Shown here in pieces: positions 21,621 through 24,702 of a DNA stretch of 24,702 nt. The DNA lies in IMG/VR virus record IMGVR_UViG_3300030099_006540, positions 1-24,702 of that record; one strand, 5' to 3'. The position numbers were made by a program, and so were the translations under genes. Under the pieces are notes generated by a model that worked only from the letters and a program-made list of their open reading frames with translations, searched no databases and had not been told where the DNA came from. Position 1 is the first letter of the stretch. The number at the start of each line of letters is the position of its first letter. The stretch is from a virus.

Positions 21621-23507
21621 TTACCTTGTATATTTTTTATTACTAATGAAACTAGAGGGTGGTGTGTAATTTGTTCCTGAAATATTTGAACCTGAGACAA
21701 GAACGTCCTCTAATAGGTTTAATTTACTATTTCCTGTAGTATCTAGCACAATATAAAGGTTCTCTTTTGCCACAATATCATTTGATTCTGGAGTGACTTC
21801 AATTTCAATACGATTGGATAGTGATGTAGATGAAATATTCACTGGAAATAGTATTACTTCACCTTTCACATAGTCTACAGTGCCTGCATTATTATTAATA
21901 TAAGTAATTACTCCATTTTCAATTTTAAAAAATTTAATTATTCCAGTTAATTGGTCATTGTTAGGAAAATCTGTTAAAAATATGTTTCCATCAACACTTT
22001 CAAGTTTAAAAGCTGAGGAACGAACATTAAATCCTTCCAAATCAGCATGAAACTTATTTCCATAACAAACTTCATAAGTTGCAACCGTATTATATGCTGG
22101 AATTAAGTTCCTTCTCATTACAAGAGTTGTAATATTTGAAGTTATTCCAGTATCAACCTTATCAATTTGAGAAAGTAACTTACTATACTTCAATCTTCCA
22201 CCAAAAGAATTTATATCTGGTGATTTTGCATAAGATTGGATTGCAGATTGTATTCTAGTTTGTAAATTTAATGAATCTGAAATAAATCCTGAGTCATAAG
22301 AAACAGTTGTGTTATATTCAACATACAAATACATTAAATCTAAAAATTCTTGCTTAATTCCAGCTACCGTATACTTTTTTAAGTCATTTTTAATTGAATC
22401 TTTTGCTACAGCTGATAAAAATTCACCATTTTTTGGTTTAACTGTAATATAGACCTTACCAAATTCAGGTGGATCAAGTTCTTCACCACCGTAAGCACTT
22501 ACTGAGTCAATATTTGGGTATAAAAAGGGTATTAGACTCTTATAATCATTAGGTGTAACTGCTCTATACTGCGATGCATAGACTCTTGGAGCAAGATATT
22601 TGACATTATCAATGGATTCTATAGAATCTCCATTTTCGGATCTCTGAATGGTTGATATGGGAGATACATTATTTGTAATATTAGTAGAGACACCACCAAC
22701 AGGATAAGTTAATGTGCCAGAAAAGGTAAAGTTAGCAGCATTATTTCCCTCCACTCCGTTTGTGACGATATATGACACTCTAATTACAGATCCATTTGAT
22801 GGTTTTCTACCTAAAATATTATCACCAAACATAATTTGATATTTTTCATCATCTACTTCTTGAATTAAAAACAATCTTGATTGAGGATTAACATCAAAAA
22901 TATTTGTATATGCGTTATATGTAAAACTCTCACCCTTCTCTACTACTTCAACACGAATTGATGAAGTATCAATATTTTGATTTGGCAAAATAAACCTTTG
23001 ATTTGTCTGTGAACTATCCACAGTAAAAGTTTTTATTAAATAATTACCCTCAAATATGGAAATATTATCAAAATTTGCAATTCCGTTGCTATTTGGTGTG
23101 ACTGTTATGCTTTCTGGAATTGAAAATGTGTAATTGCCACCCTGAACTGCACCTAAAGCCACTAAACCTGCGTTTAACCTAACAGATAGTGCATCTAAAG
23201 ACGATACATCCACACTAAAACTAATAGTTGCAGTTGATGATTTTTTAGATCTTGGAACATAACCTATATTTCTTGCCAAAGAAACTACATTTTCACGTAA
23301 AACAGCACTATCAATGAATGACTCATTGACAGCCATATTCGTATTATAAGCAGTTATATAAGAGTTATATGCTAAAGTGTCTATTAATATAGAGAAATTA
23401 GATCCCTCGAAGTCAAAATCTGTAAAATTTGAATTTGATCTCAAATAATCTTTGATCTGAGCTCTTAAAGTATTAAAATCGAGGTTTGTAAACTGTGTAA
23501 ATGACAT
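21621..23507 (-). CDS. 6: Baseplate wedge protein gp6
   Basis: gp6 joins neighbouring wedges into the inner ring of the T4 baseplate and belongs to the Baseplate_J superfamily. The N-terminal third is very typical: DYLRSNSNFTDFDFEGSNFS (20-39), LAYNSY (45-50), NMAVNESFIDSAVLRENVVS (57-76) and GYVPRS (82-87). The length of 628 residues is close to T4 gp6 (660). Upstream lies gp25, its wedge partner in T4, and the ATG at 23507 overlaps the gp25 stop by one base (TAATG), so the two are probably made in coupled amounts. Three bases separate its stop from the giant gp7-type gene. The start is fixed by this overlap and by the conserved MSFTQFTNLDFNTL opening. I am very sure of the identification. 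Confidence 0.96.
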   Translation of the reverse strand: MSFTQFTNLDFNTLRAQIKDYLRSNSNFTDFDFEGSNFSILIDTLAYNSYITAYNTNMAVNESFIDSAVLRENVVSLARNIGYVPRSKKSSTATISFSVDVSSLDALSVRLNAGLVALGAVQGGNYTFSIPESITVTPNSNGIANFDNISIFEGNYLIKTFTVDSSQTNQRFILPNQNIDTSSIRVEVVEKGESFTYNAYTNIFDVNPQSRLFLIQEVDDEKYQIMFGDNILGRKPSNGSVIRVSYIVTNGVEGNNAANFTFSGTLTYPVGGVSTNITNNVSPISTIQRSENGDSIESIDNVKYLAPRVYASQYRAVTPNDYKSLIPFLYPNIDSVSAYGGEELDPPEFGKVYITVKPKNGEFLSAVAKDSIKNDLKKYTVAGIKQEFLDLMYLYVEYNTTVSYDSGFISDSLNLQTRIQSAIQSYAKSPDINSFGGRLKYSKLLSQIDKVDTGITSNITTLVMRRNLIPAYNTVATYEVCYGNKFHADLEGFNVRSSAFKLESVDGNIFLTDFPNNDQLTGIIKFFKIENGVITYINNNAGTVDYVKGEVILFPVNISSTSLSNRIEIEVTPESNDIVAKENLYIVLDTTGNSKLNLLEDVLVSGSNISGTNYTPPSSFISNKKYTR

Positions 23508-23908
23508 TATACCCTAGTCGGTTGGAGTAAAAATTCTATATTTTGTGTTGGAAATGGTAATCCAGTAATTTCATACTCAACTCGAATCTGTAATTCATTT
23601 GAATCTATAATTGATTCAACTAATACGTTCGTTAAATTGATTCTAGGTTCAAAATTTTTAAGTAAAACAGTAATTTCTCTTTCTAAAAAAGATGAAATAT
23701 CACCTAAATCTGTTTCAAATAATGAATCTTCAATTGATGTACCCAATAATTCGTTAAAAAATCTCTCATTTATACGTGTTCGGCATAAATTCACAACTGA
23801 TTTCTTAATTGCATCTTCATTTTTCAGCACAGTCACATCATTTGTGACGGGATGCTTCGTAAATGACAAACTAATGTCCTTAAATGCACGAGAAATTTTA
23901 ACTACCAT
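23507..23908 (-). CDS. 25: Baseplate wedge protein gp25
   Basis: The 133-residue product matches the GPW/gp25 family in length (T4 gp25 is 132) and in key features: CRTRINERFFNELLG (42-56), FLEREITVLLKNFEPRI (74-90) with the conserved EPR, and the C-terminal LLQPTRV, similar to the SSNRV end of T4 gp25. gp25 is a small wedge protein that helps start sheath assembly on the baseplate. The stop overlaps the gp6 ATG (TAATG). The ATG at 23908 is preceded by an AT-rich leader with AGGA some 18-20 bases upstream, too far to be an ideal ribosome site. Two promoter-like octamers lie in the 58 bp gap upstream. The family call is firm. Confidence 0.95.
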   Translation of the reverse strand: MVVKISRAFKDISLSFTKHPVTNDVTVLKNEDAIKKSVVNLCRTRINERFFNELLGTSIEDSLFETDLGDISSFLEREITVLLKNFEPRINLTNVLVESIIDSNELQIRVEYEITGLPFPTQNIEFLLQPTRV

Positions 23909-23933
23909 TCAATTTGATATATTTTTCCTAATA

Positions 23934-23941
23934 TATCTATA
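23934..23941 (-). promoter_or_regulatory. Possible late-promoter variant TATAGATA before gp25
   Basis: The minus strand reads TATAGATA, one mismatch from TATAAATA, about 26 bases upstream of the gp25 ATG. The spacing fits a late promoter, but the mismatch and AT-rich context make chance likely. Confidence 0.3.
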
Positions 23942-23963
23942 AGGGTTTTTGAAGTAATACGTT

Positions 23964-23971
23964 TATTTATT
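23964..23971 (-). promoter_or_regulatory. Possible late promoter AATAAATA before gp25
   Basis: The minus strand reads AATAAATA, which fits the NATAAATA form reported, as I recall, for cyanophage late promoters. It overlaps the stop codon of the 43-codon gene and lies about 56 bases upstream of gp25. It sits between the arms TTTTTGAA (minus strand) near 23980-23987 and its complement near 23946-23953. Confidence 0.35.
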
Positions 23972-24098
23972 GATCCTCTTTCAAAAATTCGGGTTTTTTC
24001 TCTTCTTCCTCTTTAAAATAGGCATCACCATCATATTCACTGATCAATTTTCGACCAGATTTAATGAATTCCTCTGATTTATCGATTTTAATCACCAT
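23967..24098 (-). CDS. Small charged protein (43 aa), unknown function
   Basis: The frame runs from the ATG at 24098 to TAA at 23967 and encodes MVIKIDKSEEFIKSGRKLIS, then EYDGDAYFKEEEEKK, then PEFLKEDQ. It is rich in Glu and Lys with no hydrophobic stretch, so it is probably soluble. Translation is well supported by AAGGAGGTAA ending a few bases before the ATG, the strongest ribosome site in the window. A late-promoter-type octamer lies 20 bases upstream. I do not recognise the family. It lies between an unrecognised gene and gp25, so a role in virion assembly or late expression is possible but unproven. Confidence 0.75.
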   Translation of the reverse strand: MVIKIDKSEEFIKSGRKLISEYDGDAYFKEEEEKKPEFLKEDQ

Positions 24099-24100
24099 TT

Positions 24101-24110
24101 TTACCTCCTT
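24101..24110 (-). promoter_or_regulatory. Strong ribosome binding site of the 43-aa gene
   Basis: The minus strand reads AAGGAGGTAA two bases before the ATG at 24098, with the AGGAGG core at about 7 bases' spacing. It nearly matches the 16S anti-Shine-Dalgarno sequence, while neighbouring genes have weak or no such site. It fixes the start of the 43-codon gene. Confidence 0.85.
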
Positions 24111-24117
24111 AATAATT

Positions 24118-24125
24118 TATTTATC
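24118..24125 (-). promoter_or_regulatory. Late-promoter-type octamer GATAAATA
   Basis: The minus strand reads GATAAATA, fitting the NATAAATA pattern I recall for marine T4-like phages. It overlaps the stop of the unrecognised upstream gene and lies 20 bases before the ATG of the 43-codon gene, a spacing similar to the promoter before gp8. Confidence 0.5.
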
Positions 24126-24702
24126 CTAATTCTGGTTCAATATCAATACTTACTTCATTTTCTGGCTCAAATGGGAGTCTTTCTTTCCTCTCTTTTGCTG
24201 TTTTCCAGAAATAATTCTCTTCAGAACCTAATCCATCACGATCATGACCGTTTTCCACCTGATAATACACAGTTGATACCTTAAAATCGGGATTCTTAGG
24301 TGTCTCAGGAGTGATACTGTTGTCATATATCCTCATTCTGTTGTTTGGATAGAGACAAAACTGACCATTATCTAATTCAATGATATTATGTGACTTATGT
24401 TCAGCTGGTATCTCACTCGTTGAGTAGTCAATCGCATCAACATCAGCATGATAGTTGTCTAAAGTACACACATATGTACCAGTTTGAGTGCCATAGTCAC
24501 GAGTATAGACTTCATAGTGCATTGAACCGATAAACTGCTTCTGTACTGCCACTACACCGTAGTCCATACAGTTCCAGAACTGTAGGTTATGTAGAGTCAT
24601 ATCTGGATCTGGTGTCTGTGGACGAGATAAGAAGGCAGATATCGGTAACTTATCAAACATTGCTGCATATTCTGGTAGATATGTTTCAAAGTAGAAAGCA
24701 CG
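24121..24702 (-). CDS. Conserved-looking protein of unknown function, N-terminus beyond the window (partial)
   Basis: The frame is open to the right edge: 14 codons (RAFYFETYLPEYAA) precede the first internal ATG at 24660, so the true start lies outside and at least 193 residues are present. The sequence is rich in aromatic and polar residues: NLQFWNCMDYGVVAVQKQF, MHYEVYTRDYGTQTG, NYHADVDAIDYS, then STVYYQVENGHDRDG. It ends in an acidic tail (EPENEVSIDIEPELG). No membrane segment is visible, and I can assign no family. It lies directly upstream of the baseplate genes, reads in the same direction, and its stop overlaps a late-promoter octamer. A virion or assembly role is plausible from context only. 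Confidence 0.8.
   Translation of the reverse strand, partial: RAFYFETYLPEYAAMFDKLPISAFLSRPQTPDPDMTLHNLQFWNCMDYGVVAVQKQFIGSMHYEVYTRDYGTQTGTYVCTLDNYHADVDAIDYSTSEIPAEHKSHNIIELDNGQFCLYPNNRMRIYDNSITPETPKNPDFKVSTVYYQVENGHDRDGLGSEENYFWKTAKERKERLPFEPENEVSIDIEPELG

Follow-up and report, generated by a model that had tools for sequence, protein, structure and literature searches.

A 43-residue protein encoded beside gp25 of a cyanophage and its conserved peptide motif at several genomic locations

Upstream of the baseplate gene gp25, a T4-like cyanophage carries a gene of 43 codons that is real and under purifying selection. We think it fairly probable that its product is a small, probably disordered protein in which a peptide of about 25 residues docks on a partner outside the baseplate. 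We favour a partner outside the baseplate because the motif occurs at other genomic locations, because the gene is absent beside gp25 in some relatives and because the motif is conserved better than gp25 itself. The DNA analysed, in the following called the window, is a stretch of 24,702 nucleotides and comprises the baseplate region of the phage with gp25, gp6, a 3455-residue ORF in the place of gp7, and gp8. The features around the small gene are collected in Table 1.

Table 1. Features around the 43-residue gene, in window coordinates
Feature	Position	Strand	Remarks
43-residue gene	23967..24098	minus	ATG at 24098, TAA at 23967-23969 (stop included)
Motif within the 43-residue protein	residues 6 to about 28		the acidic tail is variable
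Shine-Dalgarno sequence AAGGAGGT	24103..24110	minus	4 nt 5' of the ATG
gp25, baseplate wedge subunit	23507..23908	minus	PF04965, E 7.6e-10; PHROG 261; downstream neighbour
PHROG 3704 gene	24121..24702	minus	E 1.4e-87; upstream neighbour; 5' end beyond the window
ATAAATA box (T4 late-promoter-like)	24118..24124	minus	overlaps the PHROG 3704 stop; 19 nt upstream of the 43-residue gene
Second ATAAATA box	23964..23970	minus	overlaps the stop of the 43-residue gene; upstream of gp25

The 43-residue gene and its ribosome site

A reading of the sequence alone had proposed that an unlisted gene of 43 codons is located here, that it has the strongest ribosome site of the window and that most of its neighbours have weak or absent Shine-Dalgarno sequences. 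The product of the frame is MVIKIDKSEEFIKSGRKLISEYDGDAYFKEEEEKKPEFLKEDQ (43 aa). To compare it among relatives, IMG/VR was scanned with gp25 and 80 loci were kept from 423 relatives. Ten loci in which the DNA upstream of gp25 was shorter than 170 nt were set aside, such that 70 were analysed, and the frame was present and open in 53 of them. Over 45 distinct sequences we obtained a pooled dN/dS of 0.106 and a pN/pS of 0.17, while the control frames (the other two forward and the three reverse ones) gave pN/pS values from 0.29 to 2.99. Variable sites were distributed as 16/11/34 over the codon positions 1/2/3. Such selection at the amino-acid level rules out a chance frame or a remnant and confirms the unlisted gene.

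Computed against the 3' end of 16S rRNA, the duplex of AAGGAGGT has an energy of -12.5 kcal/mol, which is the best value among the ten genes tested in the window. The remaining nine genes cover a range from -8.4 to +0.1 kcal/mol. Eight of them are at -4.0 kcal/mol or weaker, and the exception is a 472-residue ORF at the lower end of the range. Both proposals about the ribosome sites of the window thus held, the one on the neighbours with a single exception. Of 484 minus-strand ATGs three reach -12.5 kcal/mol, including that of the 43-residue gene.

Conservation in relatives, the check suggested by the sequence-only reading, was found for the frame but only loosely for its ribosome site. Among 54 sequences (the window and the 53 loci with the gene) the exact AAGGAGGT occurs solely in the window and in L011, and in the window's clade 3 of 28 distinct leaders drop to -3.5 kcal/mol. 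Strong sites as such are nevertheless common in the wider family. In the 13 named phages with an unfused copy beside gp25, annotated starts being accepted as given, the median duplex energy is -8.9 kcal/mol for the small gene and -2.5 kcal/mol for 80 annotated neighbours (Mann-Whitney P 4e-6); the small gene has the strongest site of its stretch in 8 of the 13. Copies at other locations, which are described below, include two beside regA that reach -11.9 kcal/mol and one in S-SCSM1 at -6.6 kcal/mol; the gp25-side copy of S-H35 has a weak site (-2.4 kcal/mol). The site in the window is the strongest form of a family tendency towards strong ribosome sites. Given how common such sites are in the family, abundant synthesis of the protein is plausible.

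Alleles of the gp25 locus and the flanking boxes

At six of the 70 loci the frame is absent with a clean junction (L026, L027, L043 and L069-L071), and in all six of these close relatives gp25 is matched over its full length. Five further loci carry another small frame at the site (L078, L080-L083). The last six (L085-L090) carry a divergent frame whose likeness to the motif is visible by eye (example PVDRNQNYMREMWGTAKLITD) and were not counted as members; for L086, the one record of them tested, the motif profile found nothing up to E 1. The gp25-side frames of L085-L090 (L085:2716-2961) have an EDYDxWxYGTEP-like stretch, which is also seen at the start of nrdB-side proteins in S-RIM8 (L094:1764-2105) and S-RIM2.

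A tree was built from 60 sequences, each 0.9-2.2 kb long and beginning at the gp25 start. It places L026 and L027 inside the gene-bearing group, while L043 and L069-L071 together form its sister group. Because L026 and L027 nest in this way, they have apparently lost the small gene. For the other four, loss and original absence fit the tree equally and cannot be told apart.

The window and the 53 loci with the gene all have an ATAAATA box on either side of it (54 of 54). Each of the two boxes in the window includes the stop codon of the preceding gene (A-TAA-ATA). ATAAATA resembles the T4 late promoter TATAAATA as given in the available parts of PMC3014915 and PMC3037559. We therefore call the boxes late-promoter-like, and the small gene may have its own late transcription. 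The whole window has five ATAAATA boxes, four on the minus strand and one on the plus strand. The minus-strand boxes precede the 43-residue gene, gp25, gp8 and a 112-residue ORF, each in a gap or at its edge. Over the whole window the five occurrences are fewer than expected (mean of 17.8 in shuffles). In the gaps, which total 164 nt and were counted with 6-nt edges, the four boxes compare with 0.86 expected from gap composition (P about 0.015), a modest excess. All six gene-less alleles retain one box, and their junctions match the product that would be expected from an exchange between the two boxes. The flanking boxes would thus suggest a simple route by which phages may gain and lose small genes, namely through exchange between short promoter-like repeats in which the preceding stop codon lies.

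The protein of the PHROG 3704 gene is labelled differently from record to record, namely as ferredoxin, PurM, transcriptional regulator or virion structural protein; Pfam and NCBIfam gave zero matches for it. In P-SSM2 its gene adjoins another gene annotated purM, and in the window it adjoins gp25 on the far side of the small gene. The leader of gp25 (23916-23937, minus strand) is predicted to form a hairpin of 8 bp whose loop contains AGGA, and the 40 nt upstream of gp25 are nearly identical among the gene-bearing relatives. L080 has a different, also hairpin-forming leader, and L085 has no such fold; the hairpins of the window and of L080 reach z-scores of only -1.9 and -1.5. A search of positions 23400-24702 against Rfam returned only two matches, both under the gathering scores. 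For T4 gene 25, the available part of PMC3014915 describes a ribosome site split by a hairpin that is said to be absent from distant T4 relatives.

The motif family and its genomic locations

The conserved core of the protein spans about 25 residues, DKSEEFIKSGxxLIxxxxSDxYLK, and the stretch shared by the aligned family members reads DKSEEFIKSGMTLITxxxSDxYLK. Across 17 aligned members L18 and I19 (numbering of the window protein) never vary, and D6 hardly does. The 43-residue protein matches PHROG 1336 (E 1.1e-5, profile positions 65-94 of 97), 12480 (1.4e-5) and 1414 (7.1e-5), and weakly 13227 (E 0.14); the members from S-H9-1 and Syn33 match 1336, 12480 and 1414 at better E-values. We assign the window member to the family of PHROGs 1414, 12480 and 1336, since its profile match runs over the motif and its gene lies directly upstream of gp25. 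L149, a copy beside regA, has no PHROG match at E 0.01; it is considered a member because its N-terminal part is near-identical to that of the window protein (73% identity overall). Beyond the motif the relatives differ: 30 records have the end CGGxGGFDDYVERWHE, and others carry an ELWEMExKK stretch or nothing extra.

Using tblastn with an E limit of 10, the window protein found 132 records and the S-H9-1 member 257, with one place per record. These counts include many near-identical isolates and are not prevalences, and a few of the 257 match through the tail only, e.g. S-CREM1. By name the records of both searches are all cyanophages, the 257 being phages of Synechococcus or Prochlorococcus. 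A corresponding search with gp25 gave 869 records from many hosts, 458 of which are named Synechococcus, Cyanophage or Prochlorococcus phages. So far the motif family has thus been seen only in cyanophages.

With a motif profile we located the copies in 23 named cyanophage genomes, which were chosen largely from hits and are not a prevalence sample. Exactly one copy was found in 20 of them and two copies in none. The commonest place is beside gp25, with 14 of the 20 copies (S-CAM1, P-SSM4, Sf-FS3, S-H9-1, S-PM2, S-CRM01, S-MbCM7, S-CAM9, Syn1, S-WAM2, S-RIM14, S-SZBM1, S-H35 and S-IOM18). For S-CRM01, where the region runs across the start of the circular record, one ORF lies between the copy and gp25, and for S-IOM18 the placement was read from an overlapping baseplate wedge annotation. 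In P-SSM4, S-RIM14, Sf-FS3 and S-H35 the small frame overlaps gp25 as annotated. Five phages (Syn33, S-RIM8, S-BM1, S-CAM22 and Syn19) have their copy downstream of nrdB. In S-SCSM1 an unannotated member of 53 aa with a fair ribosome site (L222:2539-2700) lies among metabolic genes, near plastocyanin and terminal-oxidase genes. Syn33 and S-SCSM1 possess gp25 with no copy adjoining it, and gp25 is present in all 21 genomes of the first set. In the three remaining named genomes (S-SM2, P-TIM68 and P-SSM2), all with gp25, the motif profile found no copy, and neither did it in two partial single-cell records. From these five cases we conclude that the small gene is dispensable.

A further location emerged from a motif-based scan of IMG/VR, in which 16 of 80 loci had neither gp25 nor PHROG 3704 in the stretch. 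Two of these 16 (L130 and L149) were read together with L148. All three have the copy directly downstream of regA, with a 59-residue ORF and an Hsp20-type gene after it; in L130 and L148 a DNA polymerase lies further downstream. The names in this region were confirmed by PHROG for L149 and for the polymerase of L130, and are otherwise given by likeness. Several metagenome samples (e.g. 3300020381, 3300020374) hold a contig of the gp25-side type as well as one of the regA type, such that a phage of the window's clade may carry two copies.

In the five phages of the nrdB type the motif lies near the C-terminal end of the protein encoded beside nrdB. The corresponding proteins of S-H35 and S-IOM18 end before the motif, which in these phages is found at gp25 (the preceding gene of S-H35, labelled ribonucleotide reductase A in its record, was taken as nrdB by size and order). 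As the nrdB-side protein occurs both with and without it, the motif seems to behave as one movable unit, either free or as a tail. The nrdB-side protein as such, recognised by GWDDLLDKADQPxNPFAExLWxMEKKKA (L307:989-1120; L308:923-1111), was found in 172 phage records, all of named cyanophages. It directly follows nrdB in all seven phage regions read, and among 60 listed matches 14 overlap a gene annotated as ribonucleotide reductase.

Across locations the motif is better conserved than gp25. For 17 of 19 phages (S-H9-1 and S-SZBM1 left out) the median pairwise identity over 136 pairs was 52% for the motif compared to 40% for gp25, where the value of the motif is inflated since the core was picked for conservation. 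Between nrdB-linked and other copies, with the same inflation, the motif reached 56% and gp25 40%, and the motif was higher in 49 of 60 pairs.

AlphaFold2 predicted the window protein with a mean pLDDT of 58.8 and short helices at residues 9-14 and 24-27 (alignment of 39 sequences). A longer relative reached a pLDDT of 61.6 with a low-confidence helix at 24-49 (18 sequences). The small protein is thus probably mostly disordered and may fold on a partner, although a thin alignment could give the same pLDDT. Searches of the window protein against Pfam, NCBIfam and PADLOC, and of solved structures with the family alignment, returned zero matches. A search for host mimicry in genome contigs (84,980 species by description) yielded 40 matches to the pattern, and tblastn found no relative.

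One known peptide was considered and rejected. The capsid-targeting peptide of T4 is N-terminal and has a conserved (I/L)xE cleavage site for gp21. In the window a helix is followed by LISE, which recalls this arrangement, but in many members the E is replaced by D or Q and in the nrdB-side proteins the motif is located near the C-terminus.

Possible roles and comparison with known systems

In the model that we favour, the protein would work through the peptide of about 25 residues in its N-terminal part, and the C-terminal part would be an exchangeable tail. In the window's clade the gene would be an add-on between the PHROG 3704 gene and gp25, equipped with a late-promoter-like box of its own and an excellent ribosome site. 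In infected cyanobacteria the peptide would probably dock on a single conserved protein, either a host protein or one made by the phage, and docking would change the activity of this partner. We infer four parts of this model: late timing, abundance, disorder as the working state and docking itself. Two of the other locations belong to DNA-synthesis operons, and on account of this weak hint nucleotide or replication enzymes would be the first class of partner to test, if only as a tentative suggestion. Equally tentative is the more complete picture of a movable docking peptide specific to cyanophages, which would exist as a free micro-protein or as a tail of the nrdB-side protein, in one copy per genome, at baseplate, ribonucleotide reductase or regA locations, and with a shared partner in nucleotide metabolism or DNA synthesis.

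The sequence-only reading had suggested that the protein, made in excess from its strong ribosome site, acts as a chaperone or assembly regulator in the baseplate, e.g. for gp25 or gp6. The real gene and the family-wide strength of the ribosome sites bear out part of this suggestion, and the preference for the gp25 side, with frames that even overlap gp25 in four phages, would suit it as well. A component of the baseplate should, however, be kept whenever the baseplate genes are kept, and the small gene is not: it is missing in six close relatives with a full-length gp25 match, two of which have apparently lost it. In the five nrdB-type phages and in S-SCSM1 the sole copy is found far from gp25, and it is the motif rather than gp25 that is better conserved across these locations. 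A baseplate role of the protein is thus unlikely. If instead only the act of translation mattered, by coupling to gp25 or by opening its start region, the position just upstream of gp25, the overlapping frames, the weak ribosome site of gp25 and the predicted hairpin in its leader would all be understandable. Selection at the amino-acid level, the persistence of the motif at nrdB, metabolic and regA sites, and the 58-nt gap with its own box that separates the frame from gp25 in the window make such a leader function very improbable.

A peptide that inhibits a host protein unrelated to DNA synthesis, for example in transcription, proteolysis or metabolism, in the manner of a moron used for host takeover, would agree with a gene that is dispensable and independent of location. 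It would also agree with a family confined to cyanophage records, whereas relatives of gp25 span many hosts. On the other hand, none of the searches of Pfam, solved structures, PADLOC and NCBIfam linked the protein to a known factor of this kind, and a late-type box would be late for a takeover factor in the window's clade. We consider such a function doubtful and prefer the docking peptide as outlined above. Cyanophages abound in the sea, and annotation leaves out many of their tiny genes or scatters them over separate clusters labelled 'unknown'. The motif of about 25 residues provides a clear and small target for finding the partner.

Morons are described in temperate phages. Like the morons of tailed phages, the small gene is an extra gene between conserved genes, and it is absent from otherwise collinear relatives, as seen for the six gene-less alleles among the 70 loci. 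Its promoter-like box may correspond to the own promoter of a moron. It differs from them in belonging to a single conserved family that is kept across genera. As far as the available text of Sullivan et al. 2010 (PMC3037559) goes, the interval between gp46 and gp25 is a hot spot of small genes in Synechococcus myoviruses. It shares with the window gene the side of gp25 and the presence of small hypothetical genes, but is treated there as a place and not as one family with further locations. T4-GC 659 (Syn33_195, Syn19_185), which is encoded after nrdB, ends in the motif of the window gene; it is a longer protein and, unlike the window protein, starts with the stretch given above for the nrdB-side protein (the PHROG 12245 region in Syn33). 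PHROGs 1414, 12480, 1336 and 13227 have the motif in common with the window protein and are listed in the library as separate families without function. Compared to some relatives in these families the window member is shorter, as the C-terminal CGGxGGFDDYVERWH and ELWEMExKK parts are missing. A literature search based on listings and the starts of abstracts found no paper that joins these motif clusters as one family. The pieces are already known as separate unknown clusters in PHROGs and in the T4-GC record notes; what is new is that sequence comparison reveals one selected peptide in several of these clusters, encoded at a number of unrelated loci and often with a strong ribosome site.
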